From assembly GCF_913773735.1 (NCBI RefSeq), contig NZ_CAJYEB010000004.1, positions 1 to 64,000 of the forward strand: a stretch of 64,000 nucleotides of DNA, in the 5' to 3' direction. This DNA comes from an uncultured Massilia sp. GTDB taxonomy: Bacteria; Pseudomonadota; Gammaproteobacteria; Burkholderiales; Burkholderiaceae_D. Made by a program: the position numbers and the translations under genes. The notes under the pieces are model-generated. The model did not search any database and had not been told where the DNA came from. It saw only the letters and a program-made list of their open reading frames with translations. The number at the start of each line of letters is the position of its first letter. Within the stretch, counting starts at the first letter, position 1. Positions 41,643 through 61,973 of the stretch are shown one piece after another.

Positions 41643-41706
41643 TGTCCGCGAAAACGCGCGCGGACACAGGCCGGACGCCTGGCGGACACGCTTGCGGACA
41701 GTCCGG
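41643..41706. promoter_or_regulatory. Enhancer-like cluster of TGTCCG/CGGACA sites upstream of tldD operon
   Basis: TGTCCG at 41643-41648 and CGGACA at 41661-41666 form a dyad; CGGACA recurs at 41683 and 41695. The last lies in GCGGACAGTCCGG (41694-41706), a 13-mer found unchanged upstream of the exporter operon at 61958-61970. The cluster ends 38 bases before the sigma-54 -24 box, a normal place for activator binding. The 414-base gap between the divergent genes also holds a second palindrome, the promoter and a structured leader. Confidence 0.65.
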
Positions 41707-41710
41707 CGCC

Positions 41711-41730
41711 CGAAGCATGTCCATGCTTCG
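41711..41730. promoter_or_regulatory. Perfect 20-bp palindrome between enhancer and promoter
   Basis: CGAAGCATGTCCATGCTTCG has perfect nine-base arms around TC. It lies 4 bases after the enhancer-like cluster and 14 bases before the -24 box. It could bind a second regulator or shape the loop between activator and polymerase. Confidence 0.5.
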
Positions 41731-41744
41731 CACGCCTACGTCGG

Positions 41745-41760
41745 TGGCATAAAGATTGCC
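41745..41760 (+). promoter_or_regulatory. Sigma-54 promoter of the tldD/moxR operon
   Basis: TGGCAT-AAAGA-TTGCC matches the -24/-12 consensus TGGCAC-N5-TTGC at all but one position, with the invariant GG and GC correctly spaced. Transcription would start near 41771, giving a leader of about 134 bases before the first tldD-like gene. Confidence 0.75.
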
Positions 41761-41803
41761 TATTCAAAACGTCAACTTGCTGCTATGGTTTAACAGTTTT
41801 CCC

Positions 41804-41905
41804 ATGCGATTCCGTCGCATGTTCATGACGCACCGCAGTAAAACAAGAACGAGCGGCCGTCTTCCCGGCCGTTGTCCGAGATGTAGCGTGATTCAGGAGA
41901 CTTAA
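41804..41905 (+). other. Structured leader with possible 33-codon ORF
   Basis: The leader holds two hairpins: CATGCGA/TCGCATG (41803-41821) and CGGCCG/CGGCCG (41854-41871). An ORF of 33 codons runs from the ATG at 41804 to a TAA at 41903-41905 that overlaps the tldD ATG in TAATG. Its product would be basic, with two cysteines (RCPRCS). It has no Shine-Dalgarno sequence, so it may be translated weakly, act as a coupling leader, or be chance. Confidence 0.3.
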
Positions 41906-43542
41906 TGGAACGCCGTACCTTCCTCAACATCAGCGGCCTGGCTTTCGGGTCGATGCTGGTCCCCGTGTTCGGCCGCGCGATCGCCGCCGAAGAACTGCTC
42001 AACCCGATGGCGGTCGCCGCCAAGAAGGCCCTGGCCGACACGGCGATGAACGCCGCCACCCAGGCCGGCGCGTCGTACTGCGACGTGCGGATCGGGCGCT
42101 ATCTGAACCAGTACATCGTCACGCGCGACCTGAACGTCGAGAACGTGACGAATACCGAATCGGCCGGCGTGGGCGTGCGCGTGATCGCTTCCGGCGCCTA
42201 CGGCTTCGCCGCCACCAACGACATGAGCAGCGACGGCGTGGCCAACGCCGCGCGCCAGGCGGTGGCGATCGCCAAGGCCAATGCCCGGCTGCAGGGCGAG
42301 CCGGTGCAGCTGGCGCCGGTGAAGGGCGTGGGCGAAGTCTCGTGGGCGACGCCGGTCAAGAAGGACTGGCGCACGGTGCCCATCAAGGAAAAGGCCGAGC
42401 TGCTGATCGCCGCCAACAAGGCCGGCATGGACGGCGGCGCCAACTTCATGCAGTCGATGCTGTTCCAGGTGAACCAGCAGAAGTATTTCGCGTCCACCGA
42501 CGGCTCCTACATCGACCAGGACGTCCAGCGCCTGTGGGCGCCGGTCTCGGCCACCGCCGTCGACAAGGCGAGCGGCAAGTTCCGCTCGCGCAGCGGCCTG
42601 TCGACCCCGGTCGGCATGGGCTACGAATACCTGGACGGCCGTCCCGCGGACAAGATCAAGGCCGCGGGCGGCGTCGCCACGCTGTACACGAACTCCTACG
42701 ACATCGTCGAGGACGCGCGCGCGGCCGGCCGCGACGCCAAGCGCAAGCTGACCGCCAAGTCGGTCGTGCCGGGCAAGTACGACCTGGTGCTCTCGCCCGA
42801 GCACCTGTGGCTGACCATCCACGAGTCGGTCGGCCACCCGACCGAGCTCGATCGCGTGCTGGGCTACGAGGCCAACTACGCCGGCACCAGCTTCGCCACG
42901 CTGGACAAGTGGGAATCGAAGAACTTCAAGTACGGTTCGCCGCTGGTGAACATCGTGGCCGACAAGACCACCCCGGGTTCGCTGGGCGCGGTGGGCTACG
43001 ACGACGAAGGCGTCAAGTGCAAGCGCTGGGACATCATCAAGGACGGCGTGCTGGTGAGCTACCAGGCCACGCGCGACCAGGCCCACATCATCGGCGAGAA
43101 GGAATCGCAGGGCTGCTCGTACGCGGACAGCTGGAGCAACGTGCAGTTCCAGCGCATGCCCAACGTCTCGCTGCAGGCGGGCACCAGGAAGATGACGCCG
43201 GACGAGATGGTCAAGGGCGTCAAGAAGGGCATCTACATCGTCGGCGACGGCTCGTTCTCGATCGACCAGCAGCGCTACAACTTCCAGTTCGGCGGCCAGC
43301 TGTTCTACGAGATCAAGGACGGCAAGATCGGCGAGATGCTGGAAGACGTGGCCTACCAGTCGAACACCCAGGACTTCTGGAACGCCTGCACGGCGCTGTG
43401 CGACGAGCGCGACTGGCGCATGGGCGGGTCCTTCTTCGACGGCAAGGGCCAGCCGCCGCAGATCAGCATCGTCTCGCACGGTTCCCCGACCGCGCGCTTC
43501 AACGGCATCAACGTCATCAACACCGCCCGCAAGATCGGCTAA
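41905..43542 (+). CDS. TldD-like metallopeptidase with Tat signal (first copy)
   Basis: This 545-residue protein belongs to the TldD/PmbA peptidase family and keeps the zinc motif HESVGH (His306, Glu307, His311). Unlike the cytoplasmic TldD of enteric bacteria, it starts with a twin-arginine signal, MERRTFLNISG, then a weakly hydrophobic stretch ending RAIAAEE. It should therefore cross the membrane folded. The usual C-terminal Cys-Gly-Lys zinc ligand region reads FDGKGQ, so the third ligand may differ. AGGAG precedes the ATG. It is the first gene of a nine-gene operon behind a sigma-54 promoter. A copy about 80 percent identical by eye lies two genes on. TldD/TldE pairs cleave unfolded or peptide substrates, including microcin B17 precursors. 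Confidence 0.9.
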   Translation: MERRTFLNISGLAFGSMLVPVFGRAIAAEELLNPMAVAAKKALADTAMNAATQAGASYCDVRIGRYLNQYIVTRDLNVENVTNTESAGVGVRVIASGAYGFAATNDMSSDGVANAARQAVAIAKANARLQGEPVQLAPVKGVGEVSWATPVKKDWRTVPIKEKAELLIAANKAGMDGGANFMQSMLFQVNQQKYFASTDGSYIDQDVQRLWAPVSATAVDKASGKFRSRSGLSTPVGMGYEYLDGRPADKIKAAGGVATLYTNSYDIVEDARAAGRDAKRKLTAKSVVPGKYDLVLSPEHLWLTIHESVGHPTELDRVLGYEANYAGTSFATLDKWESKNFKYGSPLVNIVADKTTPGSLGAVGYDDEGVKCKRWDIIKDGVLVSYQATRDQAHIIGEKESQGCSYADSWSNVQFQRMPNVSLQAGTRKMTPDEMVKGVKKGIYIVGDGSFSIDQQRYNFQFGGQLFYEIKDGKIGEMLEDVAYQSNTQDFWNACTALCDERDWRMGGSFFDGKGQPPQISIVSHGSPTARFNGINVINTARKIG

Positions 43543-43560
43543 GGCAGGAGCACACACACC

Positions 43561-44898
43561 ATGACCATCCTGAACCAGGAACAAACCAAGCGCATCTGCG
43601 ACCGCGTGCTGTCCTACTCCAAGGCCGACGAGTGCGTCGTCACCGTCGGCGGCAGCCGCGAGGGCAATATCCGCTTCGCCCGCAACGCCGTGTCGACCGC
43701 CGGCCTGGCCGACGACACCAACGTGACCGTGCAGGTCGCCTTCGGCAAGCGCCAGGGCACCGCCAGCATCAACGAATTCGACGACAAGTCGCTGGAAAAG
43801 GTCGTGCGCCGCGCCGAGGACCTGGCGCGCCTGGCGCCGGAAAACCCGGAGTTCATGCCGACCGTCGACAAGCAGGCCTACAAGGCCTCGAAGACCTTCG
43901 ATGCGAAGACCGCCGCCATCGATCCGGAATTCCGCGCCCAGGCCGCCGCCTATGCGATCGAGGCCTGCCGCAAGAACAAGCTGGTCGCGGCCGGCTTCTT
44001 CAACGACAGCACCGCCTTTTCCGCCGTCGCCAACTCGAAAGGCGTGTGGGGCCACCAGGACGCCACCGGCCTGGACTTCACCTGCACCGTGCGCACCGAG
44101 GACGGCCGCGGTTCCGGCTGGGTCAAGCGCTCGGCCACCGAGGCCGCCCGCTTCGACCCGCGCGAGGCCGCCGACGTGGCGATCGAAAAGGCGCTGCGCT
44201 CGGTCGATGCGAAAGCGCTGGAGCCGGGCCGCTACACCGTGATCCTGGAGCCGGCCGCCACCTCCGAGCTGCTGGGCGCCATGCTGTCCGGCTTCGACGC
44301 GCGCCGCACCGACGAGGGCCGCAGCTTCTTGTCGAAGAAGGGCGGCGCCTCGCGCCTGGGCGACAAGCTGTTCGACGAGAAGGTCAACATCTGGGCCGAC
44401 CCGTGGAACCCGGACGTGCCGGTGCTGCCCTGGGACGGCGGCAGCCTGGTCGCGCGCCAGCGCATGGAGCTGATCAAGGACGGCAAGGTCAATGCGCTGC
44501 AGTACTCGCGCTACTGGGCCCAGAAGAAGGGCGTGGCGCCGACGGCGCGGCCGGGCAACATCATCATGGCCGGCACCGACAAGTCGACGCTCGACCTGAT
44601 CGCCAGCACCAAGAAGGGCATCCTGGTCACGCGCACCTGGTACATCCGCATGGTCGATCCGCAATCGGTGCTGCTGACGGGCCTGACGCGCGACGGCACC
44701 TTCTACATCGAGAACGGCAAGATCAAGTACCCGATCAAGAACTTCCGCTTCAACGAGAGCCCGGTGACCATGCTGAACAACATCGAGGAGATCGGCAAGC
44801 CGGTGATCATCGGCGGCGACGAGGTGCCGTACCAGATGTCGATCCCGCCGATGAAGGTACGCGACTTCAACTTCACGTCGCTGTCCGACGCGGTCTGA
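43561..44898 (+). CDS. TldE/PmbA-like partner protein
   Basis: This 445-residue protein has the PmbA/TldE fold (VTVGGSREGNIRFARNAVST near the N-terminus, then TVILEPAATSELLGAMLSGF and FLSKKGGASRLGDKLF). It lacks the HExxxH zinc motif, as usual for TldE, which supports the TldD subunit. It has no signal peptide or Tat motif even though both neighbouring TldD copies have one. In known complexes TldD and TldE assemble, so it may be carried out with a Tat-tagged partner or stay inside; this is inference. It lies 18 bases after the first tldD-like gene, with AGGAG upstream of its ATG. Confidence 0.88.
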   Translation: MTILNQEQTKRICDRVLSYSKADECVVTVGGSREGNIRFARNAVSTAGLADDTNVTVQVAFGKRQGTASINEFDDKSLEKVVRRAEDLARLAPENPEFMPTVDKQAYKASKTFDAKTAAIDPEFRAQAAAYAIEACRKNKLVAAGFFNDSTAFSAVANSKGVWGHQDATGLDFTCTVRTEDGRGSGWVKRSATEAARFDPREAADVAIEKALRSVDAKALEPGRYTVILEPAATSELLGAMLSGFDARRTDEGRSFLSKKGGASRLGDKLFDEKVNIWADPWNPDVPVLPWDGGSLVARQRMELIKDGKVNALQYSRYWAQKKGVAPTARPGNIIMAGTDKSTLDLIASTKKGILVTRTWYIRMVDPQSVLLTGLTRDGTFYIENGKIKYPIKNFRFNESPVTMLNNIEEIGKPVIIGGDEVPYQMSIPPMKVRDFNFTSLSDAV

Positions 44899-44935
44899 TA
44901 CGCATGCGGGCGGTGCGCACGTACACCGCGACGCC

Positions 44936-44960
44936 GTAGGGTGGGCACCCTGTGCCCACC
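44936..44960. repeat. GTAGGGTGGGCA palindrome inside the operon
   Basis: GTAGGGTGGGCA is followed after CCCTG by TGCCCACC, giving a strong eight-base hairpin in the 84-base gap between the TldE-like gene and the second tldD-like gene. It could act as an mRNA processing or stabilising hairpin that changes the ratio of upstream to downstream products. Confidence 0.65.
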
Positions 44961-44982
44961 ATCGCATCCCAACGGAGCATCC

Positions 44983-46620
44983 ATGGAACGCCGTACCTTC
45001 CTCAAGATCGGCGCCGGCACCGCCGGCGCCATGCTGGTCCCCATCCACGGCAGCGTCATCGCCGCCGAACAGCTGCTCGATCCGCTCGCCGCGAGCGTCA
45101 AGAAGGCGCTGGCCGACGCCGCCATGGACGCCGCGAAAAAGGCCGGCGCCTCGTACTGCGACGTGCGCATCGGCCGCTACCTGAACCAGTACGTCACCAC
45201 GCGCGACCTGAACGTCGAGAGCGTGACCAATACCGAATCGACCGGCGTCGGCGTGCGCGTGATCGCATCCGGCGCCTACGGCTTCGCCGCCACCAATTCG
45301 CTGCACCCGGACGCCGTCGCCAGCGCGGCGCGCCAGGCCGTGGCCATCGCCAGGGCCAATGCGAAGCTGCAGGCCGAGCCGGTGCAGCTGGCGCCCGTGC
45401 AGGGCGTGGGCGAAGTCGCGTGGGCCACGCCGTTCAAGCGCGACTGGCGCACGGTGCCCATCAAGGACAAGGCCGAGATGCTGATCGCCGCCAACAAGGC
45501 GGGCCTGGATGCCGGCGCCAGTTTCATGACGGCGAACCTGTTCCAGGTGAACCAGCAGAAGTACTTCGCGTCCACCGACGGCTCCTACATCGACCAGGAC
45601 ATCCATCGCCTGTGGGCGCCCCTGACCGCCACCGCCGTCGACAAGGCGACCGGCAAGTTCCGCTCGCGCGCCGGCCTGGCGCCGCCGGTGGGCATGGGCT
45701 ACGAGTACTTCGACGCCAGGCCCGAGCACAGGATCCGCGCCGCCGGCGGCGTCGCCACGCTGTACGACGGCGGCTACGACATCGTCGAGGAAGCCAGGAG
45801 CGCCGGCCGCCAGGCGCGCGAGAAGCTGACCGCGAAGAGCGTCGATCCGGGCAAGTACGACCTCGTGATCGCGCCGGAAAACCTGTTCCTCACCATCCAC
45901 GAGTCGGTCGGCCACCCGACCGAGCTGGATCGCGTGCTGGGCTACGAGGCCAACTACGCCGGCACCAGCTTCTGCACGCTGGACAAGTGGGAGTCGAAGC
46001 GCTTCAACTTCGGTTCGAAGATCGTCAACTTCGTCGGCGAGAAGACCACCCCCGGCTCGCTGGGCGCCGTCGGGTACGACGACGAGGGCGTGCCGGCCAG
46101 GCGCTGGGACATCGTCCGCGACGGCATCCTGGTCAACTACCAGGCCACGCGCGACCAGGCCCACATCATCGGCGAGAAGGCGTCGCACGGCTGCTCGTAC
46201 GCGGACAGCTGGAGCAACGTGCAGTTCCAGCGCATGCCCAACGTCTCGCTGGTCGCCGGCAGCAAGAAGCTCACGCCCGACGAGATGGTCAAGGACGTCA
46301 AGCGCGGCATCTACGTGCTGGGGCGCGGATCGTATTCGATCGACCAGCAGCGCTACAACTTCCAGTTCGGCGGCCAGCTGTACTACGAGATCAAGGACGG
46401 CAGGATCGGCCAGATGCTGGAAGACGTGGCCTACCAGTCGAACACGCAGGACTTCTGGAACGCCTGCACCGCGATCTGCGACGAGCGCGACTGGCGCATG
46501 AGCGGCTCCTTCTTCGACGGCAAGGGCCAGCCGAGCCAGGTCAGCGCCGTCTCGCACGGGTCGGCGACCACGCGCTTTGACGGCATCAACGTGATCAATA
46601 CCGGACGCAAGATCGGGTGA
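44983..46620 (+). CDS. TldD-like metallopeptidase with Tat signal (second copy)
   Basis: This 545-residue paralogue of the protein at 41905 aligns without visible gaps over its whole length. It carries a textbook twin-arginine signal (MERRTFLKIGAG) and the zinc motif HESVGH at the same positions (306-311). Differences cluster in the signal peptide, around residues 105-110 and 195-205, and near 245-260, which suggests different partners or substrates. CGGAG lies before the ATG at 44983; the frame starting at 44941 is within the upstream repeat. The D-E-D order could allow two different TldD-TldE complexes sharing one TldE subunit. Confidence 0.9.
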   Translation: MERRTFLKIGAGTAGAMLVPIHGSVIAAEQLLDPLAASVKKALADAAMDAAKKAGASYCDVRIGRYLNQYVTTRDLNVESVTNTESTGVGVRVIASGAYGFAATNSLHPDAVASAARQAVAIARANAKLQAEPVQLAPVQGVGEVAWATPFKRDWRTVPIKDKAEMLIAANKAGLDAGASFMTANLFQVNQQKYFASTDGSYIDQDIHRLWAPLTATAVDKATGKFRSRAGLAPPVGMGYEYFDARPEHRIRAAGGVATLYDGGYDIVEEARSAGRQAREKLTAKSVDPGKYDLVIAPENLFLTIHESVGHPTELDRVLGYEANYAGTSFCTLDKWESKRFNFGSKIVNFVGEKTTPGSLGAVGYDDEGVPARRWDIVRDGILVNYQATRDQAHIIGEKASHGCSYADSWSNVQFQRMPNVSLVAGSKKLTPDEMVKDVKRGIYVLGRGSYSIDQQRYNFQFGGQLYYEIKDGRIGQMLEDVAYQSNTQDFWNACTAICDERDWRMSGSFFDGKGQPSQVSAVSHGSATTRFDGINVINTGRKIG

Positions 46621-46630
46621 GGGGCAGGGC

Positions 46631-47251
46631 ATGGCCGTCTACGATTTCTATTTCACGCGCCTGACCTACGAGTCGGGCGACTGGGACGTGGACCAGCGCA
46701 TGCCCAGCAACGTGCTCAATTCCCTGGTCGAGTACACCACGCTGCGCGTGGACCCGGCCGAGCGCGTGATCGCCCTGTCCGACCCGAAGATGCTGGAAGC
46801 GCCGTTCTGCTACCTGGCCGGGCACAAGCTGGTGCAGTTCACGCCGGCCGAGCGCAGGAACTTCGAGCGCTACGTGAAGGGCGGCGGCTTCGTCTTCGTG
46901 GACGACTGCAACCACGACATCGACGGCCTGTTCGCCAAGTCCTTCGAGGCCGAGATGGCGCGCATCTTCGGCGCGCGTGCATTGAAGAAGATCCCCAACG
47001 ACCACCGCCTGTATTCGAGCTTCTTCCATTTCGACGGGCCGCCCAACACGGCGGTGGAGCTGAACGGCTGGGGCGACGACCTGGTGCACGAGTACCTGCG
47101 CGCCATCGAGGTGAACGGCCGCATCGGCGTGCTGTACTCGAACAAGGACTACGGCTGCGAGTGGGACTACGACTTCCGCAACAAGCGCTGGCTGGCGGTC
47201 GACAACACCCGCTTCGCGGTCAACATCATTCAATACGCATTGGGAGCATAG
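46631..47251 (+). CDS. DUF4159 protein (GATase-like fold)
   Basis: This 206-residue protein belongs to DUF4159, a family with a class I glutamine-amidotransferase-like fold usually found beside MoxR/BatA genes. Landmarks are YDFYFTRLTYESGDWDVDQRMP at the start, FTPAERRNFERYVKGGGFVFVDDCNHDI and GWGDDLVHEYL. The usual DUF4159 N-terminal signal peptide is absent, so this version should stay in the cytoplasm unless exported with others. It starts 10 bases after tldD2 and ends 3 bases before moxR, so operon membership is firm. No enzymatic activity is known for the family. Confidence 0.88.
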   Translation: MAVYDFYFTRLTYESGDWDVDQRMPSNVLNSLVEYTTLRVDPAERVIALSDPKMLEAPFCYLAGHKLVQFTPAERRNFERYVKGGGFVFVDDCNHDIDGLFAKSFEAEMARIFGARALKKIPNDHRLYSSFFHFDGPPNTAVELNGWGDDLVHEYLRAIEVNGRIGVLYSNKDYGCEWDYDFRNKRWLAVDNTRFAVNIIQYALGA

Positions 47252-47254
47252 GCA

Positions 47255-48253
<999 letters not shown>

Positions 48254-48259
48254 GGCGCC

Positions 48260-49144
48260 GTGCCGGCCACTGCGGCGCTGGCCGCGCACACGGGCAAGCT
48301 CGCGCTGGCCATCCGCCACGTGCTGGCGGGACTCGGCCATGGCATCCACGTCGGGCGCGAGCGCGGCGCCGGCGTCGAGTTCTCGGAATACCGCGCCTAC
48401 GTGCCGGGCGACGAGTGGCGCCGCGTCGACTGGAAGCTGATGGCGCGCGCCGACCGCTACTTCGTGCGCGAGGCCGAGCGCGACAGCCACGTGGCCGTGT
48501 GGCTGGTGCTGGACGCCAGCGCGTCGATGCGCGAGCCGAGCCGCGCGGTCGAGGGTTTGAGCAAGCTGGGCTACGCCAGGCTGCTGCTGGGCTGCGTCGC
48601 GGCGATCGCCCAGCGCCAGGGCGACGCCTTCGGCCTGGTCGTGTGCGGCGGAGAACGCGCGCACTTGATCCCGGCCCTGCGCGGACCGCGCCAGCTGCAG
48701 CGCGTGCTGGCGCGGCTGGAGGCCGCCGACGCCGGCGGCGGCCTGCCCGACGGCGAGACGCTGCGCGCCAGCCTGCACTTCGCGCGCGCGCCGGCCGTCG
48801 TGTGCGCCGCCGGCGACTTCCTCGACTGGCCGTCGCCGCTGTCGGCGGCGCTGCTGCGCCTGCGCGGCATGCGCCACGACGTGCGCGTCCTGTGCCTGCA
48901 CACGCAGGCCGAGGCGGACGGCGGCTTCGATCCGCAACTGGCCTACCGCGATCCGGAAGGCGCCGAGGGGACGATGCGCTTCGGGCGCGACCTGCGCGCC
49001 GGCTACCTGCATCACCGCGCCGCGCATTTCGACGAGGTGGCCCGGCAATGCCGCCGCCACGACCTGCCGCTGGTGCAGGCCTGCATCGAGCAGGCGCCGG
49101 CCGAGGTCTTGCGCAGCCTGCTGCGCCGCGGAGGCGGGCGATGA
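48260..49144 (+). CDS. DUF58 / VWA-like MoxR partner
   Basis: This 294-residue protein shows the DUF58 signature GAGVEFSEYRAYVPGDEWRRVDW and a VWA-like domain with a metal-site start at LVLDASASM. DUF58 proteins are the standard partners of MoxR ATPases. The MIDAS motif Asp-x-Ser-x-Ser reads DASAS, so metal binding is plausible. It starts at a GTG six bases after moxR and overlaps the next gene by four bases (ATGA). Confidence 0.9.
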   Translation: MPATAALAAHTGKLALAIRHVLAGLGHGIHVGRERGAGVEFSEYRAYVPGDEWRRVDWKLMARADRYFVREAERDSHVAVWLVLDASASMREPSRAVEGLSKLGYARLLLGCVAAIAQRQGDAFGLVVCGGERAHLIPALRGPRQLQRVLARLEAADAGGGLPDGETLRASLHFARAPAVVCAAGDFLDWPSPLSAALLRLRGMRHDVRVLCLHTQAEADGGFDPQLAYRDPEGAEGTMRFGRDLRAGYLHHRAAHFDEVARQCRRHDLPLVQACIEQAPAEVLRSLLRRGGGR

Positions 49145-50145
49145 ACGCGAGCCTGTGGTGGTGGGCGCTGCCGGTCCTGTTGCTGCCGATCCTGTGGCAC
49201 CGCAGGAAGCGCCAGCAGGCGGACAGCGTGCCGCTGGCGACCGCGCGCTTCCTGCCCCGGGCCGAGCCGCTGCAGCGGCGCACGTGGTCCTGGGACGACC
49301 CGCTGCTCCTGCTGCTGCGCTGCCTGCTGCTGCTGGCGGCGCTCGCCCTGCTGGCCGATCCGGTGTGGCCCTGGCGCGGTTCCGCCGTGCTGGTCGTGCC
49401 GGGCAGCGACCCGGCCCTGGTCGAACGGGAGGCGCGCGCGGCGGGCCTGCAGGAGGCGCCGCGGCTGGCGCTGCCGGATCGCGACGCCGTCCGCTGGATC
49501 CATGCGCACGAGCGCGAATTCGCCCTGGACGCGCGCCTGCTGGCGGTGGGCGACGTGACGATGCCGGCCGGGCTGCCGCGCTTTCGCCATGCCGTGACCC
49601 TGCGTAGTACGCCGGCGCCGGCGCCGGCGCCGCTCGCTGCGGTCGAGCGTCATGTCGCCGTGTTCAGCGCGCGCGCGGACGCGTGGCGGCGCCTGTTCGG
49701 CGCCGTCGACGGGCCGCTGCGCGTGGTCGTCGATGCGCAGGCCGGCGCGGGCACGCACCTGGTCGTCTGGGACCGCGCCGAGGCGCCGCCGGCCGGCCTG
49801 CGCGCGCCGCTGTGGTGGATCGCCGACGCGACCGCCTTCCCCGAACTGGCGCGCGCGCCGCAGGTGCACGGCATGCGCTACCTGGATACGCCGCGCGGCC
49901 GCCTGTGGAGCGCGGACGGCTGGCCGCCCCTGGATGCGCAAGAGGCGCGCGTGCTGCTGTCCGACTGGCAGCGCCTGCACGACGGCCCGCGGCCCTTCAC
50001 CGCGCCCCCTCTCGCGCTGGCGCCGGATGCGGCGGCGCCGGCCTCGGACGACCATGAGGAGAGCGCATTGCGCGAGCGCCTGGCATGGCTGCTGGTGGTC
50101 CTGTTTGCCCTGGAAAGGATGCTGACCCATGTCCGCCGACGCTGA
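49141..50145 (+). CDS. BatA-like membrane protein
   Basis: This 334-residue protein has the BatA N-terminal pattern: a first membrane segment (LWWWALPVLLLPILWH), a loop with LPRAEPLQRRTWSWDDPLLLLLR, then a second membrane segment (LLLLAALALLADPVW). A large extracytoplasmic region follows, with one more hydrophobic helix near the C-terminus (LAWLLVVLFALERML). A full VWA domain is not visible. It overlaps the DUF58 gene upstream by 4 bases and the next gene by 17, so translation is coupled. Confidence 0.8.
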   Translation: MNASLWWWALPVLLLPILWHRRKRQQADSVPLATARFLPRAEPLQRRTWSWDDPLLLLLRCLLLLAALALLADPVWPWRGSAVLVVPGSDPALVEREARAAGLQEAPRLALPDRDAVRWIHAHEREFALDARLLAVGDVTMPAGLPRFRHAVTLRSTPAPAPAPLAAVERHVAVFSARADAWRRLFGAVDGPLRVVVDAQAGAGTHLVVWDRAEAPPAGLRAPLWWIADATAFPELARAPQVHGMRYLDTPRGRLWSADGWPPLDAQEARVLLSDWQRLHDGPRPFTAPPLALAPDAAAPASDDHEESALRERLAWLLVVLFALERMLTHVRRR

Positions 50146-53685: not shown

Positions 53686-53694
53686 GCGCTTCCT

Positions 53695-53708
53695 GGCCGA
53701 ATTCGGCC
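53695..53708. terminator. Palindrome at the meeting point of two operons
   Basis: GGCCGAATTCGGCC is a perfect 14-base palindrome in the 27-base gap between the ends of the two convergent operons. It could form a five-base stem with an AATT loop on either strand. There is no T run, so classical Rho-independent termination is doubtful. Confidence 0.35.
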
Positions 53709-53712
53709 CGCG

Positions 53713-54483
53713 TCAGCCGGCGTGGTCGCGCATCCACTCCTTCAGGCCGTTGACCCAGTCCTTGGCCGGCAGGTTGTAGCGCCGCTTGATCTCGCCGGCG
53801 CGCTCGTACAGCGCCGAGAAATCGATCCGGGGCGCCTCCTTGAAGGCGATGACGACAATGTTGGCGTCGTGGACCTCGGGCAGCCAGACGACGGCGTCGA
53901 ACGCGCCTTCCATCGCCAGGAAGTTCTTGTCGTAGCTGGAAAAGTCGCCGAACACATTGGCCGTCATGATGCCGTCCGGGCCCAGGCAGTCGGCGCAGGC
54001 CCGGTAGAACTCGGGCGTGTCGAGCACCGGGCCGCGCGCCTCCTCGTCGTACAGGTCGACCTGCAGCACGTCGACGGCGCCGTGGTTGGCCGGGTCCATG
54101 ACGAAGTCCAGCGCATCCATCTCGCGCACGTCCAGCCGCGCGTCGTTGGGCGGCAGGCCGAAGTACGCATGGCAGATCGCGATCACGTTCGGATTCAGCT
54201 CGGCGGCGGCGACGCGCGCCTCGGGAAAGCGCTGGTAGCAGAACTTGGTCAGCGCCGCGCTGCCCAGCCCCAGCTGCACGATGCGGCGCACGTCGCGCCG
54301 GAACAGCAGCCACGCCATCATCATCTGCACGTATTCGAGCTCGATCGCATCCGGCCGCGCCAGGCGCATCGCGCCCTGTTCCCACGAGGTGCCCAGGTGC
54401 AGCGAACGCACGCCCTCGAATTCGGTGATGGTGGCCGGCGGATGGCCGGGGCGGGAAAAGCGGGGATCGTGGCGGGCGGACAT
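53713..54483 (-). CDS. Spermidine-synthase-like (SpeE fold) methyltransferase/aminopropyltransferase
   Basis: This protein of 256 residues has the polyamine-synthase-like Rossmann fold: IVQLGLGSAALTKFCYQRFP (nucleotide loop), AAAELNPNVIAICHAYFGLP and VDVLQVDLYDEEARGP. Such folds transfer aminopropyl groups or bind S-adenosylmethionine-type cofactors. The short form is common in Burkholderiales as a spermidine-synthase-like protein. The start is uncertain between the ATG at 54483 and a GTG at 54504. It lies downstream of the kinase gene on the same strand and seems to be the last gene of the exporter operon. Confidence 0.8.
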   Translation of the reverse strand: MSARHDPRFSRPGHPPATITEFEGVRSLHLGTSWEQGAMRLARPDAIELEYVQMMMAWLLFRRDVRRIVQLGLGSAALTKFCYQRFPEARVAAAELNPNVIAICHAYFGLPPNDARLDVREMDALDFVMDPANHGAVDVLQVDLYDEEARGPVLDTPEFYRACADCLGPDGIMTANVFGDFSSYDKNFLAMEGAFDAVVWLPEVHDANIVVIAFKEAPRIDFSALYERAGEIKRRYNLPAKDWVNGLKEWMRDHAG

Positions 54484-54530
54484 GGCGGAAGGCGAAGGGG
54501 ACACCGCCCCATCTTACCAAACCCGGATCG

Positions 54531-55889
54531 TCAGGCGGGCAGGATCAGCGTCACCGCCAGGCCGCCGCCCTCGCGGTTGGCCAGCGTGATGCGGCCGCCG
54601 TGCGCTTCGGCGATCTCGCGCGCCAGCGCCAGGCCCAGGCCGGTGCCGCTGCGCTTGGTGGAGTAGAAGGGGACCAGGGCGTTGGTGAGCACGGCGTCGT
54701 TCATGCCGCTGCCGCGGTCCAGCACCTCGATGCGCACGGCGTCCTGCACGCGCCGCACCAGCAGCGCGACGTCTTCAGGACGCGAGCCGGATTCGTGGGC
54801 ATTCTTCAGTAGGTTGAGCAGGGCCTGCTCCATCTGGGCGGCGTCGATGCGCGCCGGCTCCTCGGGCAGGCCGTCGGCCAGCGCGAACGGCACCTGCGCG
54901 ACCAGGCGCGCGACGAAGTCCGCCCAGGCCACCGGTTCCAGGCGCGGTGCCGGCAGCTTGGCGAAGCGCGCGTAGCCGAGGATGAAGCTTTCCAGGTGGC
55001 GCGTGCGCTCGCCGATGGTCTGCAGGATCTGCGGCAGGCGCTCGACCTGGCCACGCCGCACCAGCTCCGCGCCCGAATGCGCCAGCGAGGCCAGCGGCGC
55101 CAGCGAGTTGTTCAATTCGTGGCTGATCACGCGGATCACCTTCTTCCAGGTCTGCACTTCCTGGCGCCGCAGCTCGGCGGTGAGCTGGCGCAGCAGCAGC
55201 AGTTCGTGGCGCCGGCCGTTCAGGCTGAAGTGGCGCCGCGCCAGGTGATAGACCTCCTCCTCCTCGCCGGCGCCGGCCGTGAACAGGCCGTCGCCGCCGC
55301 GCTCGAGCGCCTCCACGAGGGCCGGCGTCGCCTGCGCCAGCACCTCGCCCAGCGCATGGCCCTCGAGCTTGCGCCCGCCCGACAGCAGCTGGCGCGCGGC
55401 CAGGTTGGCGTAGACGATGGCGCGGCCGGCCGGCGCATGGGCGCTCGGCGCGTCCGCCACCAGCAGCATGGCCACCGGCGTGTTCTGCACCATGGTGTCG
55501 AGCAGCAGCTCGCGCTGGACCAGGCCCAGGCGCTGTTCGCGCAGCACTTCGCCGAGCGTGTTGTGGGCCCGCACCAGGTCGGCCAGTTCGTCGTTGTGCT
55601 CCCAGTGCAGGCTGAAGGAAAAGTCGCCGTCGCGGTAGCTCGTCACCGTGCCCTCCAGGGCGCGGAACAGCGACAGGATCGGCTGGATCTGGCTGCGGAT
55701 GGTGATGACGGCGATCGGCACCACGCACAGCAGGCAGATCGCCAGCACCGCCAGCGGCCGGCCCGGCATCAGGTGGTCGAGGCCGAGCGCGATCAGGATG
55801 CCGACGGCCAGCAGCGTGCCGACCAGCGCCGACCAGCGCGTGACCAGCGAGAAGCGGCGCCGGCGCGGCGCGGCCCGGACATGGTCCAT
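54531..55889 (-). CDS. NtrY-like membrane sensor histidine kinase
   Basis: This 452-residue inner-membrane kinase has two transmembrane segments (about 19-40 and 46-66) with almost no periplasmic loop, a HAMP-like region, a PAS domain (about 125-215), a HisKA domain with His257 in VISHELNNSLAPL and an HATPase domain with NLLKNAHES, DRGSGMN and GTGLGLALARE. HELNNSLAPL is typical of kinases paired with sigma-54 activators. The short sensor loop suggests it senses something within the membrane or a partner such as the exporter. Its ATG lies five bases after the stop of the activator gene. Confidence 0.9.
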   Translation of the reverse strand: MDHVRAAPRRRRFSLVTRWSALVGTLLAVGILIALGLDHLMPGRPLAVLAICLLCVVPIAVITIRSQIQPILSLFRALEGTVTSYRDGDFSFSLHWEHNDELADLVRAHNTLGEVLREQRLGLVQRELLLDTMVQNTPVAMLLVADAPSAHAPAGRAIVYANLAARQLLSGGRKLEGHALGEVLAQATPALVEALERGGDGLFTAGAGEEEEVYHLARRHFSLNGRRHELLLLRQLTAELRRQEVQTWKKVIRVISHELNNSLAPLASLAHSGAELVRRGQVERLPQILQTIGERTRHLESFILGYARFAKLPAPRLEPVAWADFVARLVAQVPFALADGLPEEPARIDAAQMEQALLNLLKNAHESGSRPEDVALLVRRVQDAVRIEVLDRGSGMNDAVLTNALVPFYSTKRSGTGLGLALAREIAEAHGGRITLANREGGGLAVTLILPA

Positions 55890-55894
55890 GGCGT

Positions 55895-57229
<1,335 letters not shown>

Positions 57230-57260
57230 GGGTGCCAGCATATCACTGTTGCACGGCCGG

Positions 57261-58493
57261 TCATACGCTGCGGGTGGCCGTGGCCGGCGAGATGCTGGCC
57301 GCGCGCCACGCCGGGCCGTAGGCGGCGAGCACGCCCAGCACCCAGAACACCGCCGCCCCGGCCAGCAGGTAGCCGGCCGGCAGGCGCGCCAGCTCCAGCT
57401 GGCTGACCAGCAGGTGGTTCAGCGCCAGCCCGAGCACGACGCCGCCGAACACGCCGGCGCTGGTGATCATGAAGTTCTCGGTGATGAAATGGCGCAGGAT
57501 GTCGACCTTGCGCGCCCCCAGGGCGCGGCGCACGCCGATCTGCTTGCGCCGCTGCGTGACCCACAGGCTGGCCATGCCGACGATGCCGGAGCAGGTGATC
57601 AGGAGGAGCAGGACGCTGACCGTGACCAGCATCCATTGCAGGGCGACGTCGTTGCGGTAGCGGCGCTGGCGGTCTCCATCGACGGTGCTCTGGTTCATGA
57701 TCAGCGGCAGGGCCGAGGACTTGCGCAGCGCGGCTTCCGCTTCCTTCATGACGCGGTCGCGCTGGCCCGCTTCGGCGCGCACCGCGAACAGCGCGCCGCT
57801 GTCCCCGTAGCTGCGATGCGGGACGATGACGGTCTGCAGGCCACGCTCGGACGTTTCGCCATGGGCGCTCATCAGGCGTTCGACGACGCCGACCACGCGC
57901 GATCCGCTCGCGCCCGGCCCATCGCCCATGTACAGGGTCTTGCCAACCGCCGATTCGCCGGGCCACAGCCGTTCGGCCAGCGGCTTGCTGATGATGACGA
58001 CTTGGGCTGGGACGTTCTCGACATTGTCGTTCACGTCGACGAATTCCGATGACAGGAAGTCGCGGCCGTCGACCACGCGCAAGCCGAAGGTCTTGACCAG
58101 CGAATCGCCCGACTGGTAGATCGAGGCCTCGGCGCTCGACTTCTCCTGGCTCGGATTGAGGAACACACTGGAGATCCAGCCACTTTGCGACAGCGGCATC
58201 TGGCTGACCTGGGCGACCGCGGCGACGCCGCCGACGGCGCGCAACAGGTCGGCCTGGCGCTTGATGTCGGCCAGTCGCTTCTCGGGCGTCTCGGCGCCGA
58301 GCGGCCGCACCGTGAAATAGAAGGTCGCGCTCTCGTCCGACAGCCCGGACGGGCGCGACACCACGTCGCGCCGCTCTTCGACGATATGGGCGGTATTGGC
58401 CAGGATGGCCAGGCTGATGGCGACCTGCAGGGCCACCAGGATAGGGCCGGTCTTGTTGCGCAACAGCGCGGACAGGATGGGACGGATTTCCAT
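57261..58493 (-). CDS. MacB-like ABC transporter permease (second)
   Basis: This 410-residue permease has the MacB plan: one N-terminal membrane segment (ILVALQVAISLAILANT), a large periplasmic domain (about 50-275) and three C-terminal segments (about 285-310, 335-360 and 375-400). The family motif is RRKQIGVRRALGARKVDILRHF. MacB-type transporters do not carry substrate through the membrane. They use ATP to drive periplasmic extrusion through a MacA-type adaptor and an outer-membrane channel. It lacks its own ATPase domain, which is encoded separately at 59827. It lies 12 bases after the other permease gene, so the two probably form a heterodimer. Confidence 0.9.
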   Translation of the reverse strand: MEIRPILSALLRNKTGPILVALQVAISLAILANTAHIVEERRDVVSRPSGLSDESATFYFTVRPLGAETPEKRLADIKRQADLLRAVGGVAAVAQVSQMPLSQSGWISSVFLNPSQEKSSAEASIYQSGDSLVKTFGLRVVDGRDFLSSEFVDVNDNVENVPAQVVIISKPLAERLWPGESAVGKTLYMGDGPGASGSRVVGVVERLMSAHGETSERGLQTVIVPHRSYGDSGALFAVRAEAGQRDRVMKEAEAALRKSSALPLIMNQSTVDGDRQRRYRNDVALQWMLVTVSVLLLLITCSGIVGMASLWVTQRRKQIGVRRALGARKVDILRHFITENFMITSAGVFGGVVLGLALNHLLVSQLELARLPAGYLLAGAAVFWVLGVLAAYGPAWRAASISPATATRSV

Positions 58494-58505
58494 GACGGGT
58501 TCTCC

Positions 58506-59816
58506 TTACTGCGATTTGAGCTGGATGGCGGGCGTCACCTGGCAGGCACGCCAGGTCGGCAGCAGACCGGCGAGGATCGAGGCGCCGACCGACAGCACGA
58601 AGGTCAGGGCCAGCATCGGCAGGTCCATGGTGGCGACGGCCGCCATCTGCTTGTTGCTCATGCCGATCAGCGCCAGCGCGCCGAAGGCCAGCAGCAGCCC
58701 GAGGGTGCCGCCGACCAGGCCGACGACGCCGGTCTCGATCAGGAACTGGCGGAAGATTTCCTTGCGCGAGGCGCCGAGCGCGCGGCGCACGCCGATCTCG
58801 GAGGCCCGTGCGGAGAACTTGGCGAGCAGCAGGCCGACCGTATTCACGAGGCACAGCAGCAGGAAGCCGAACGCCAGCCAGGCCTGCAGCTTGCTGTCCT
58901 TGGCGACCACCTTGCCGTACTCCAGCCATTCGCCCACGTTGTACAGCATGTTCGGCGCATGGCGCTTCATGCGCCCCAGCTTGCGCTGCTCGGCCGCATA
59001 GTTGTCCAGCCAGGTTTGCAGGTCGCGCCGCTCGCCACTCGATGCCAGCTCGAACCAGGCGGTGATCCAGGTGCATTCGGAGGCCAGGGTGGCCGCGAAA
59101 CCGGGGCCGACGTTCTCGCTGCAGTTGATGCCTCCGTTCAGCCCGGTTTCATGGCGGATCGCGTTGGACAGCGGAATGAAGAATTCCTCGCTGTTGCCGA
59201 AGCGCGGACCGCCGGCCAGCTGGTAGAAGCGCGGCAGCGGCTGCCACGTGTCGATCACGCCGGCCACCGTATAGGGAAAGCCCTGCATCATGAGGCGCTG
59301 GCCGACGGGATTCGCTTCGCCGAACAGCTTTTCCGCCAGCTTGCGGCCGAGGACGACGACGTCGGCGCCCCGCGCCTCGTCGCCTTCGCTCCAGGCCTGG
59401 CCGCGCAGGAAAGGCACGTCGAACATCGCAAAGAAGTCGCGCGTGGGCGCCAGGCCGGCGGCGGTAAACGGCTGCATGTCGCGGCGCGCCGGCTCGACCG
59501 GCAGGGCGACGCCGTACAGGGCGGTGCGGCGCACGCCCTGGCCGCTCTTGACGAAGTTCATTGCATCCTGGTAGCTGATCTGCTGGTCCTGGTTCGGCTC
59601 GGACGGCGAATAGCCCTCGGCCGGCTTGCCATCGACGATCGGCACGAACAGCCGGTCGCTTTTCTGCGGGATCGGATCGTTCGACATCATGTGCAGGATC
59701 GTCAGCGTGGAGACGCTGGCGGCCACGCCGACCGCCAGCGTCAGCACCATCAGGGTCGTCAGGAACGGGTTGCGCCGCAGGCTGCGCACGCCGAGCTTGA
59801 AGTAGTAGGCGAACAT
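58506..59816 (-). CDS. MacB-like ABC transporter permease (first)
   Basis: This 436-residue permease has an N-terminal membrane segment (FLTTLMVLTLAVGVAASVS), a periplasmic domain of about 260 residues and three C-terminal segments starting near LAFGFLLLCLVNTVGLLLA. The conserved cytoplasmic motif is EIGVRRALGASRKEIFRQFL. It is a distant paralogue of the permease at 57261; their periplasmic domains differ clearly. It starts 10 bases after the ATPase gene. No outer-membrane factor gene is in the operon, so a shared TolC-type channel would be needed if the pathway spans the envelope. Confidence 0.9.
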   Translation of the reverse strand: MFAYYFKLGVRSLRRNPFLTTLMVLTLAVGVAASVSTLTILHMMSNDPIPQKSDRLFVPIVDGKPAEGYSPSEPNQDQQISYQDAMNFVKSGQGVRRTALYGVALPVEPARRDMQPFTAAGLAPTRDFFAMFDVPFLRGQAWSEGDEARGADVVVLGRKLAEKLFGEANPVGQRLMMQGFPYTVAGVIDTWQPLPRFYQLAGGPRFGNSEEFFIPLSNAIRHETGLNGGINCSENVGPGFAATLASECTWITAWFELASSGERRDLQTWLDNYAAEQRKLGRMKRHAPNMLYNVGEWLEYGKVVAKDSKLQAWLAFGFLLLCLVNTVGLLLAKFSARASEIGVRRALGASRKEIFRQFLIETGVVGLVGGTLGLLLAFGALALIGMSNKQMAAVATMDLPMLALTFVLSVGASILAGLLPTWRACQVTPAIQLKSQ

Positions 59817-59826
59817 GGCGCTTCCC

Positions 59827-60534
59827 TCAGGCGGTGGCGTGGGCGTCGACCAGGGTCGGGCCCTTGCGCACCAGGTCCGACACCTGGCCGTCGATGATGT
59901 GCACGTTGCGGTGGGTGCGCACGGCCAGTTCCGGGTCGTGCGTGACCATCAGGATCGTGGTGCCGGCCGCGTTGATCTCTTCCAGCAGCTCCATCACGCC
60001 GCGCGCCATCTGGGTGTCCAGGTTGCCGGTCGGTTCGTCGGCCAGCAGCAGCTTGGGCGAGCCGGCCAGCGCCCGCGCGATCGCCACGCGTTGCTGCTGG
60101 CCGCCGGACAGCTCGGCCGGGTAATGCTTCATGCGCGAGGCGAGGCCGACCTTGGCCAGCGCCTCCTCGATGCGCTTCTTGCGCTCGGCCCCGTTGAAGC
60201 CGCGGTAGCGCAGCGGGACGTCGACGTTGTCGAACAGGTTCAGGTCGGGGATCAGGTTGAAGCCCTGGAAGATGAAGCCGAGCTTCTCGTTGCGCAGGCG
60301 CGAGCGGGCGTTGTCGTCCAGTCCCTTGACGTTGACGCCGTCGAGGACGTATTCGCCCGAGGTGAATTCCTCGAGCAGGCCGGCGATGTTCAGGAAGCTG
60401 GTCTTGCCGGAGCCGGACGGACCGGTGACGGTGACGAATTCGCCTTCGCGGACGTCGATCTCGAAGCCGCGCAGGGCGTGCGTCTCGATCATGTGGGTGC
60501 GGTATACCTTGGAGAGGTTGGTCATGCGCAGCAT
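59827..60534 (-). CDS. ABC exporter ATP-binding protein (LolD/MacB type)
   Basis: This 235-residue ATPase has Walker A GPSGSGKTS, the Q-loop in FIFQGFNLIPDLNLFDNV, the signature LSGGQQQRVAIARAL, Walker B LLLADEPTGNLD and the switch histidine in VTHDPE. The length and the NLIPDLN segment place it with the LolD/MacB ATPases that energise MacB-type permeases. It is encoded 30 bases downstream of the adaptor gene and just before both permeases. Confidence 0.95.
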   Translation of the reverse strand: MLRMTNLSKVYRTHMIETHALRGFEIDVREGEFVTVTGPSGSGKTSFLNIAGLLEEFTSGEYVLDGVNVKGLDDNARSRLRNEKLGFIFQGFNLIPDLNLFDNVDVPLRYRGFNGAERKKRIEEALAKVGLASRMKHYPAELSGGQQQRVAIARALAGSPKLLLADEPTGNLDTQMARGVMELLEEINAAGTTILMVTHDPELAVRTHRNVHIIDGQVSDLVRKGPTLVDAHATA

Positions 60535-60564
60535 GGCAGTGTCCTTTCGGGGTCAGTGTTCGGT

Positions 60565-61833
60565 TTACTGGTTGATCGAGACGCGGCTGGCGCCGTCGAA
60601 GGTATCGGTGCCGGCGACGACGACCTTGTCGCCCTGCTTCAGGCCGGAGACGATTTCGACGGCGGAGATGCTGGTGGCGCCCATCTTGATCGGCGTGCGT
60701 TCGGCGATGCCGTCGCGCACCACGTAGGCGTAGCGCCCGCCCTCGTTCTCGACGAAGGGGCCGCGCGCCACCATCAGCACGTTCGGCTTTTCCTCGATCA
60801 GCAGGCGCGCCGTCACGCGCTGGCTCTGGCGCAGGCCCCTGGGCTGCTCGCCATCGAAGCGCACGCGCGCCAGCACCATGTTCTTGACCACCTCTGGCGA
60901 CAGCGCCGACAGCTTGCCGGTGGCGCTGCCGGAGGGCAGCGTGACTTCGGCGTTCATGCCGATACCCAGGTCGTTGACATAGGTTTCCGGCACCTCGATC
61001 TCGACTTCGAGCTTGGACAGGTCGACCAGCGTCATCAGGGGCGCATTGGCGGCGACCACCATGCGGTCCTGCACGTTCAGCGTGCCGATGAAGCCGTCGA
61101 CCGGGGCGCGCACGGTCAGCTCGTCGACGCGGCGCTGCGCTTCGCCCAGCGCCAGCCTGGCGCGTTCGAGCTCGTTGGTCTTGGTCTTGAGCGCCAGCTG
61201 GACGTCGTCGCCTTCCAGCACGGCCGCCTGGGCCGCGTGCCTGGCGCGGATCTCGGCCGACTGCAGCGCATCCTTGGCCTTCTGGTAGTCGATCTTGGCG
61301 ATCACGCCGACCTGCGCCACGCTCTCGTAGCGCTCCAGCGTGCGCTGGGCCGACAGGCGGTCGATCTCGGCGGTGTCGGCATCCTTCTGCGCCAGCAGCT
61401 TCTGCTTGCGCGCCAGGATCTGCTGGCGCGCCACCTCGGCCTTCAACTGCTCGTAGGTCGACTGTTCGCGCTTGAGGGCATCGGACAGGTCGGGCGATTC
61501 GAGCACGGCCAGCGCCTGGCCCTTCTTGACGGTGTCGCCGGCGGCGACCTTCAGGTTGACGGTGGATGCCGCCTTGGCGTACAGCGTCGGGCTGACGGCG
61601 GCGACCACGCGGCCGTTGACGGACGCGTCGCGCACCAGCGTGCCGCGCGTGACTTCGGCGATGCGCAGGCGCGCCGCGCTCACCGAGGCTTCGCTGCTGC
61701 GCCAGGTGGAGAACAGGCCGACGCAGACGGCGACGACGGCGGCGGCGGCGCCGATCAGGACGGCGCGGCGCTTGAGCGCCTGCCCGGCCGGCGCGGCGAT
61801 GACGGCATCCTGGTGTGAGGTATCGCGGATCAT
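60565..61833 (-). CDS. MacA/HlyD-like periplasmic adaptor
   Basis: This 422-residue adaptor has an N-terminal membrane anchor (VLIGAAAAVVAVCVGLFSTW), a lipoyl-like beta-strand domain, a long helical hairpin (about 110-230: YEQLKAEVARQQILARKQKL and later repeats), a second lipoyl half (LTVRAPVDGFIGTLNV) and a membrane-proximal domain ending EIVSGLKQGDKVVVAG. Such adaptors link ABC exporters to an outer-membrane channel. The ATG at 61833 is preferred because a sigma-54 promoter at 61868-61883 would start RNA near 61858, just 25 bases before it. A longer frame to 62007 would place the promoter inside the gene. Confidence 0.9.
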   Translation of the reverse strand: MIRDTSHQDAVIAAPAGQALKRRAVLIGAAAAVVAVCVGLFSTWRSSEASVSAARLRIAEVTRGTLVRDASVNGRVVAAVSPTLYAKAASTVNLKVAAGDTVKKGQALAVLESPDLSDALKREQSTYEQLKAEVARQQILARKQKLLAQKDADTAEIDRLSAQRTLERYESVAQVGVIAKIDYQKAKDALQSAEIRARHAAQAAVLEGDDVQLALKTKTNELERARLALGEAQRRVDELTVRAPVDGFIGTLNVQDRMVVAANAPLMTLVDLSKLEVEIEVPETYVNDLGIGMNAEVTLPSGSATGKLSALSPEVVKNMVLARVRFDGEQPRGLRQSQRVTARLLIEEKPNVLMVARGPFVENEGGRYAYVVRDGIAERTPIKMGATSISAVEIVSGLKQGDKVVVAGTDTFDGASRVSINQ

Positions 61834-61867
61834 GGAGGACTCTTGCAGTAATGGACAGTCCAGGCTT

Positions 61868-61883
61868 TGCAGGATCCGTGCCA
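61868..61883 (-). promoter_or_regulatory. Sigma-54 promoter of the exporter operon
   Basis: Read on the minus strand, TGGCAC-GGATC-CTGCA has a perfect -24 box and a -12 box with one mismatch (CTGC for TTGC), with GG and GC correctly spaced. The start would lie near 61858. It is the only sigma-54-like element found in this gap. Confidence 0.75.
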
Positions 61884-61939
61884 GGCGCCAAGTCCTTGAT
61901 TCGACAGGGATCGGCGCGGACGGACGAGGCGTCCGCCAG

Positions 61940-61973
61940 TGTCCGGGCGGCGCGCCGGCGGACAGTCCGGACA
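61940..61973. promoter_or_regulatory. Enhancer-like cluster of TGTCCG/CGGACA sites upstream of the exporter operon
   Basis: TGTCCG (61940-61945) and CGGACA (61959-61964) form a 25-base dyad, with a third half-site CGGACA at 61968-61973. The stretch GCGGACAGTCCGG at 61958-61970 is identical to that upstream of the tldD operon. It lies about 57 to 90 bases upstream of the -24 box on the minus strand, a usual position for a sigma-54 activator. Confidence 0.65.

Follow-up and report, generated by a model that had tools for sequence, protein, structure and literature searches.

The 64,000-nucleotide stretch of DNA from an uncultured Massilia sp. considered here (contig NZ_CAJYEB010000004.1, positions 1 to 64,000; hereafter the window) carries two convergent operons that appear to share a sigma-54 promoter signature. 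Nine genes on the forward strand (the tld operon, 41905-53685) encode TldD-type metallopeptidases with twin-arginine translocation (Tat) signals, a TldE partner and putative membrane-complex proteins, and seven genes on the reverse strand (the exporter, or mac, operon, 61833-53713) encode a MacAB-like pump, a sensor kinase, an NtrC-type sigma-54 activator and a SpeE-like protein; the operons meet at a gap of 27 bases (53686-53712). The reading favoured here, with a probability of about 0.6, is that both operons form one sigma-54 regulon under the kinase and activator of the exporter operon, and that this regulon would provide an inducible, peptide-handling response of the cell envelope. The shared regulation of the two operons, as read from sequence, is well supported, and its function is inferred. 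An original prediction made from the letters of the window had described this gene content, with its coordinates, convergence and 27-base gap, and had placed the activator gene inside one of the operons; all of this was borne out, the activator gene lying within the exporter operon (Table 1). Among named relatives, the closest proteins to those of the window are from Massilia and Telluria.

Promoter elements of the two operons

Each operon is preceded by a -24/-12 element and, further upstream, by a cluster of CGGACA/TGTCCG half-sites, as originally predicted. Scored against the commonly used -24/-12 consensus, the mac element ranks above every other GG-N10-GC match on both strands of the window. 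The half-sites lie at 41643, 41661, 41683 and 41695 before the tld operon and at 61940, 61959 and 61968 before the exporter operon, and among the 56 half-sites in the window these are the only two clusters of at least three within 130 bp. First-order Markov sequences contained a three-site cluster in 30 of 200 cases and a four-site cluster in 1 of 200. A three-site cluster is thus unremarkable for this composition, and the weight of the argument rests on conservation in relatives. The mac promoter also carries a sequence that resembles the consensus for integration host factor (IHF), placed between the half-sites and the -24 element (Table 1).

Conservation of the signature in relatives

The 21 loci where the operons are joined (677,820 bp including the window) hold clusters of at least three half-sites within 130 bp at 14 tld promoters and 18 mac promoters, with a single such cluster anywhere else. 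Of the upstream regions compared, 15 of 25 before the tld operon (window included) and 25 of 33 before the exporter operon combine a cluster with a -24/-12 element that matches at least 9 of 12 consensus positions, as compared with 0.83% of 20,000 random 400-bp windows drawn from the same loci with the promoters not excluded. An element of this quality is found about 50 bp before the adaptor gene (macA) in 30 of the 33 mac regions, and by eye a TGG-type element precedes tldD1 in 18 of 23 loci with an exporter, window included. IHF-like elements of the WATCAANNNNTTR kind are present in 23/33 mac and 8/25 tld upstream regions against a background of 0.02 per 400 bp, and their spacing is alike at the two promoters: the distance from the start of the IHF-like element to the -24 element is 17-19 bp in 21 of the 33 mac regions, 29-30 bp in two others and 18 bp in the 8 tld regions that have one. 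Among named loci of the same family, cluster and -24/-12 element occur together at the tld promoter in 35 of 40, with the permease present in 39 of 40, and no cluster was found at the tld promoter in any of 38 named loci apparently from other families or phyla. These named loci are the best 78 (40 + 38) of at least 580, and they overlap the loci from the genome draws (L228 appears to be G027), so that neither set can be taken as independent of the other.

Linkage and co-occurrence of the operons

Absence of co-occurrence in relatives had been named in the original prediction as a ground for giving up the idea, and the genome comparisons came out in its favour. Of 392 family genomes, 128 have a tldE match and 201 a permease match (E 1e-100); 125 have both, 76 the permease alone, 3 tldE alone (G027, G079 and G646, the last being 48% complete) and 188 neither (Fisher p 4.5e-44, a value that ignores kinship). 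In a draw of 145 family genomes, 26 have tldD1, 40 have the larger of the two permeases (E 1e-60) and 24 have both. At the level of the class, relatives of tldD1 were found in three of 369 genomes besides the host and relatives of the permease in nine; outside the family, with the host left out, the permease is matched in 3/3 of the tldD genomes versus 6/365 of the others. All of these counts depend on the E-value cut-offs used. Among the matches listed (118 tld and 112 permease places), 95 genomes have both operons, on one contig in 85, where they are convergent in 85/85 and within 35 kb of one another in 84; in the other ten, the assembly has the two on separate contigs. The space between the operons holds inserts of up to ~10 kb that differ among relatives.

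The linkage, the convergence and the signature shared across genera support, for this family, the part of the original prediction that concerned a common regulon. The part that made of the two operons one 16-gene system did not stand: each half occurs alone (76 genomes with the exporter only and 3 with the peptidase only, of 392), and a single unit was rejected.

Operons found apart

Loci that hold one operon without the other suggest to which of them the sites belong. In ten exporter-only loci of the family, the activator gene is always present (10/10), and a -24/-12 element precedes macA in 6 of the 9 loci that reach it. Exporter operons of the same gene order, with activator and kinase, are found in three other families (G511, G309, G418, G156 and G325), and all five of those inspected have a -24/-12 element just before macA and GTGTCCG/CGGACA-type sites upstream; in the exporter operons of G283 and G311, neither an activator nor a kinase was matched, and a -24/-12 element directly before macA is absent. 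The tld operon is found in Lysobacteraceae, Microbulbifer, Nevskia and Bacteroidota as well, and CGGACA clusters are absent there. Three of the genomes with the distant exporter (G309, G418 and G511) also have a tld operon, on a different contig, with no cluster and no convincing -24/-12 element in its upstream region. Since the sites are present at distant exporters and at none of these outside tld operons, they most likely belong to the exporter's activator. By this comparison the tld operon is probably the younger member, having joined the older regulon of the exporter in one family, and the locus looks like a regulon that has gained a whole operon, the states before and after being visible in relatives.

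Two family genomes, G079 and G027, keep the tld operon and lack both the permease and the orthologue of the activator: their activator matches are of at most 47% identity over part of the length or 38-41% over the full length, as compared with the 84-86% reached by the orthologues of G126 and G056. No cluster is found at the tld promoter of either genome, and in G079 the -24/-12 element has decayed (AGGCGCAACAATTGGC versus TGGCACAACAATTGCC in G056, G098 and G126 of the same genus). Loss of the tld sites alongside loss of the activator, in two genomes, is suggestive only.

The alternative that the operons are independent, neighbours by descent whose tld sites are an inherited by-product and whose expression is uncoupled in practice, is considered unlikely. 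It draws on the occurrence of each operon alone and on the loss of tld sites in several linked loci; it has to contend with a convergent linkage that persists across genera despite differing inserts, and with a cluster that is kept before tldD1 in most named family loci and lost in the two genomes lacking the activator.

Observations that weigh against a shared regulon

A number of observations speak against common control as set out above. Among 23 tld loci with an exporter and sufficient upstream sequence, those of G018, G113, G003, G040 and G132 lack the cluster and a convincing -24/-12 element (G018 has a 9/12 match that was judged unconvincing), G120 and G126 retain the -24/-12 element only, and G056 retains it with a single site. 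The permease is likewise present at the named loci L242, L244 and L245, which have neither cluster nor -24/-12 element, and at L246, which has no cluster. Linked loci without tld sites indicate that the coupling is dispensable, and that it is often, not always, kept. At the window's own tld promoter no IHF-like element was found, and in activator-less G027 the only strong -24/-12 match (11/12) is 358 bp upstream of its tld operon where, by eye, it falls in neighbouring coding sequence. The exact palindrome is patchy: of 27 genomes including the host, 11 have it at one of the two promoters, 7 have it at other places only and 9 lack it; it has 42 places in total versus 17 for a reversed control (places read by eye).

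A further difficulty is posed by a paralogous cluster in the host genome (G000), at about 139700-143700 of contig C42 (L169), where the genes for an HlyD-type adaptor and an ATP-binding cassette (ABC) ATPase stand behind a 12/12 -24/-12 element and CGGACA sites, divergent from the gene for another sigma-54 activator. Promoters like this one recur at matching places in G045, G070, G139 and G056. The sites there are very similar to those at the tld and mac promoters, and the second activator might therefore act on both; ten further activator-like matches are found in the host. That the CGGACA sites of the tld operon serve the C42 activator rather than that of the exporter operon is nonetheless thought quite improbable: in other families such sites are also found before the exporter operon, the tld and exporter promoters have the IHF-like element and its spacing in common, and the tld sites are gone from G079 and G027, which are both without the exporter's activator.

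Searches of the host genome for further members of the regulon gave few places. The palindrome GTGTCCG-N0-25-CGGACAC occurs at three, two of which are the tld and mac promoters; the third, at 284365 of contig C23, lies just before an open reading frame (ORF) for a small secreted protein, and no -24/-12 element was seen near it in the stretch inspected. A pattern of half-site plus -24/-12 element likewise occurs at three places, versus one for a reversed control: the tld promoter, the promoter of the C42 paralogue and a site on contig C15. The last was rejected as a member of the regulon: the same string recurs across many relatives and has the look of coding sequence, presumably of rplM. This pattern missed the mac promoter of the host, whose sites are otherwise spaced or oriented. 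In the literature searched, the palindrome returned only one paper, an unrelated one on a human gene.

TldD and TldE proteins of the locus

All three PmbA_TldD Pfam domains score over their cut-offs in TldD1, TldE1 and TldD2. An RRxFL start, an HExxGH motif and a C-terminal cysteine are invariant in 12 of 12 aligned TldD sequences (H306, E307, H311 and C495), and TldD1 aligns with E. coli TldD across the metal motif. In TldD, according to the available text of PMC5810440, the metal ligands are both histidines of HExxxH and a remote cysteine, and the enzyme is active only with TldE. The conserved residues match these ligands in kind, and from its C-terminal position C495 would be the counterpart of E. 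coli Cys454.

A domain search of the host genome returned five TldD/PmbA-family genes, three at the locus and two elsewhere, whose lengths suggest that they are the standard TldD and PmbA. The gene order of the operon in the relatives retrieved is tldD1-tldE1-tldD2-tldE2-DUF4159-MoxR-DUF58-BatA-DUF4175-last gene (G108, on a broken contig, has part of tldE1 only). The second tldE is present in most relatives and missing from the window, where tldD2 ends at 46620 and the next gene starts at 46631, which leaves tldD2 without a partner gene of its own. It is also missing from the named loci L218, L232 (Telluria antibiotica) and L234 (Massilia rhizosphaerae), and among the 128 genomes with tldE there is one match in 10, the host included, and two in 118. 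Tat-type TldD proteins of Bacteroidota, Verrucomicrobia-like metagenome-assembled genomes and Gammaproteobacteria (L253-L288) are 66-70% identical to the query, which is high for the distance.

A possible function of the proposed regulon

Under common control of the two operons, the kinase would sense a peptide or another insult to the envelope, and the phosphorylated activator would bind the GTGTCCG/CGGACAC sites at the tld and mac promoters, from which sigma-54 polymerase would fire the exporter and tld operons. The adaptor, ATPase and two permeases may then expel a compound from the periplasm or inner membrane, and TldD, exported by the Tat pathway with TldE as a hitchhiking partner, may cut peptides in the periplasm. 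The MoxR, DUF58, BatA-like, DUF4175 and DUF4159 proteins might put the peptidase together at the membrane or activate it there. The conserved motifs of TldD, together with a pump resembling the MacAB, Lol and Dar systems, favour such an inducible response that expels and cuts. The export or maturation of a peptide, which the original prediction had proposed, is one way in which these activities might be used; none of the genes was recognised as a precursor, and detoxification or turnover would fit equally. Tentatively, the tld operon could be envisaged as a widespread, unnamed envelope machine, a Tat-exported TldD/TldE peptidase served by a membrane complex of the MoxR, DUF58, BatA and DUF4175 proteins, that was wired, in one family, into the sigma-54 regulon of an ancient peptide exporter to make a two-armed, export-and-destroy defence of the periplasm against peptides.

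The main rival is that the substrate is a self-made peptide, whose leader is trimmed by TldD/E as for microcin B17 and which a MacAB/Dar-like pump secretes, so that the regulon would be biosynthetic. The leaders of several ribosomally synthesised and post-translationally modified peptides (RiPPs) are removed by TldD/E, according to the available text of PMC10885120, and the top NCBIfam match of the ATPase is the darobactin exporter protein DarD (254 bits); that score is under the cut-off of 375. Among the sixteen genes no precursor or RiPP-modifying enzyme was recognised, small ORFs not having been searched systematically. The TldD proteins carry Tat signals, which would place leader trimming after export, and the tld operon is much alike in Gammaproteobacteria and Bacteroidota, which resembles a housekeeping or stress function more than it does a variable biosynthetic cluster. 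A biosynthetic regulon is for these reasons considered improbable.

TldD/E is known from E. coli as a protease and for its part in peptide maturation, and here its Tat-predicted relatives stand in an operon conserved across Gammaproteobacteria and Bacteroidota. The shared promoter code would tie this operon to the exporter, and one activator with two promoters offers a handle on the inducing signal and the substrate.

Comparison with known systems

The closest characterised counterpart of the peptidase is TldD/TldE (PmbA) of E. coli (MEROPS M103, PDB 5NJ5), with which it shares the three-domain architecture, HExxxH with a C-terminal cysteine and an adjacent tldE gene. Unlike the E. coli pair, the proteins of the window are predicted to be exported by Tat, the D/E pairs are duplicated in most relatives, and genes for DUF4159, MoxR, DUF58, BatA and DUF4175 proteins are added in the operon. 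The tld operon also recalls the Bat, or MoxR-VWA, operons, which similarly combine MoxR, DUF58 and a BatA N-terminal domain; here no VWA domain was found in the BatA-like protein, which has the N-terminal BatA domain only, and TldD/TldE, DUF4159 and DUF4175 genes are added. An operon of Stenotrophomonas maltophilia, NIPOLPBK_01784-01792, described in the available text of PMC7688217 as not yet characterised, contains two TldD genes and genes for a putative protease, a MoxR-like ATPase, a membrane protein and three hypothetical proteins, and by its gene content would be the same tld operon. Some of its genes are downregulated in biofilms of all isolates, and that text draws no link to an exporter or to sigma-54, the terms 'maca' and 'sigma-54' being absent from its main text.

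The exporter has in common with MacAB-TolC and with the darobactin exporter DarBCD a periplasmic adaptor, an ATPase and FtsX-type permeases with MacB periplasmic domains. Unlike the single chain of MacB, its ATPase is separate from two unequal permeases, and unlike both systems it has its own sigma-54 kinase/activator pair within the operon. Membership of either family was tried and rejected: the equivalog cut-offs for MacB and MacA were missed, with MacB scores far under 966 bits, and the darobactin models gave 254 of 375 bits for DarD, 47 of 450 for DarC and 26 of 700 for DarB (NCBIfam). By sequence, the exporter resembles the MacAB, Lol and Dar pumps and scores under their curated cut-offs.

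The activator combines a receiver domain (PF00072), an AAA+ domain for interaction with sigma-54 (PF00158) and a Fis-type helix-turn-helix (PF02954). Its top NCBIfam match is to the PrsK/PrsR pair of PEP-CTERM bacteria, and membership of that system was rejected as well, the scores being 336.4 of 502.6 bits for the activator (TIGR02915) and 66.3 of 300 for the kinase (TIGR02916). A role in anti-phage defence was tried with PADLOC on nine proteins (of the tld operon, with the SpeE-like protein) and rejected, the only matches being REase_II (E 5.9e-4) for the MoxR protein and mads_2 (E 1.1e-10, 39 bits) for the SpeE-like protein.

In the available text of the literature searched, there was no account of a combined exporter/peptidase regulon and no mention of DUF4159, and DUF4175 was found in one paper, for an Acinetobacter cell-division protein. 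Searches for sigma-54 with MacB/FtsX/HlyD, TldD with twin-arginine and Massilia with rpoN returned nothing on this system among the matches listed.

Genes and other features of the locus

The genes and promoter features are collected in Table 1. The assignment of the eighth gene of the tld operon to the DUF4175 family is based on source names and on PF13779 in some relatives, the window protein itself having no Pfam match. AlphaFold2 (AF2) models of this protein (predicted local distance difference test, pLDDT, 75; predicted template modelling score, pTM, 0.42) and of the last protein of the operon (pLDDT 77.5, pTM 0.65) match generic beta-sandwich folds only, with a TM-score by query length of 0.11-0.17 among the matches listed. 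The last protein is predicted to have an N-terminal pair of helices, a beta-rich domain, an alpha/beta domain and C-terminal helices. Such generic matches tell us nothing about function.

Table 1. Features of the two convergent operons and their promoters in the window
Feature	Position	Strand	Remarks
tld upstream activator-site cluster (candidate)	41642..41701		palindrome GTGTCCG-N12-CGGACAC at 41642-41667; CGGACA at 41683 and 41695
tld -24/-12 element TGGCATAAAGATTGC	41745..41759	+	GG-N10-GC; 9/12 consensus positions
tldD1	41905..43542	+	Tat-signal TldD-type metallopeptidase, 545 aa; HExxxH and C-terminal Cys
tldE1	43561..44898	+	PmbA-like partner; by eye no signal peptide and no HExxxH
tldD2	44983..46620	+	second Tat-signal TldD; 79% identity to TldD1
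DUF4159 protein	46631..47251	+	second tldE immediately upstream in relatives, missing in the window
MoxR-family AAA+ ATPase	47255..48253	+	
DUF58 protein (VWA-like)	48260..49144	+	
BatA-like membrane protein	49141..50145	+	Pfam BatA N-terminal domain, TIGR02226
DUF4175-family membrane protein	50129..52129	+	predicted N-terminal helical hairpin, then beta-rich domains
Last tld-operon gene, membrane protein	52126..53685	+	family unassigned
SpeE-like protein	53713..54504	-	spermidine-synthase fold
Sensor histidine kinase	54531..55889	-	452 aa, putative start
NtrC-type sigma-54 activator	55895..57241	-	predicted regulator of tld and mac promoters
MacB/FtsX-like permease 1	57261..58493	-	410 aa; PF12704 and PF02687
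MacB/FtsX-like permease 2	58506..59816	-	436 aa; PF12704 and PF02687
ABC ATPase, LolD/MacB/DarD type	59827..60534	-	235 aa
MacA-like periplasmic adaptor	60565..61833	-	MacA structures matched
mac -24/-12 element TGGCACGGATCCTGC	61869..61883	-	GG-N10-GC; 11/12 consensus positions
IHF-consensus-like element AATCAAGGACTTG	61889..61901	-	starts 18 bp before the mac -24 element
mac upstream activator-site cluster (candidate)	61939..61974		GTGTCCG...CGGACAGTCCGGACAC

Of 39 sequences searched, 18 contain a gene for a TonB-dependent receptor (PF00593, PF07715). In the 21 joined loci this gene is absent from the window, G139, G018, G070 and G094 and present in 16, where it lies between the operons on the exporter strand, beyond speE (for example L069:606-3038). 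One of the distant exporter loci, G309 (contig C1, 835674-845468), has four tandem pairs of MacB-like permeases, with one -24/-12 element found before macA. On the other side of the exporter operon in the window, the gene for a MutS domain V protein (62045-63655) is divergent from it and has the upstream region in common, and this gene is found at the same place in some relatives.

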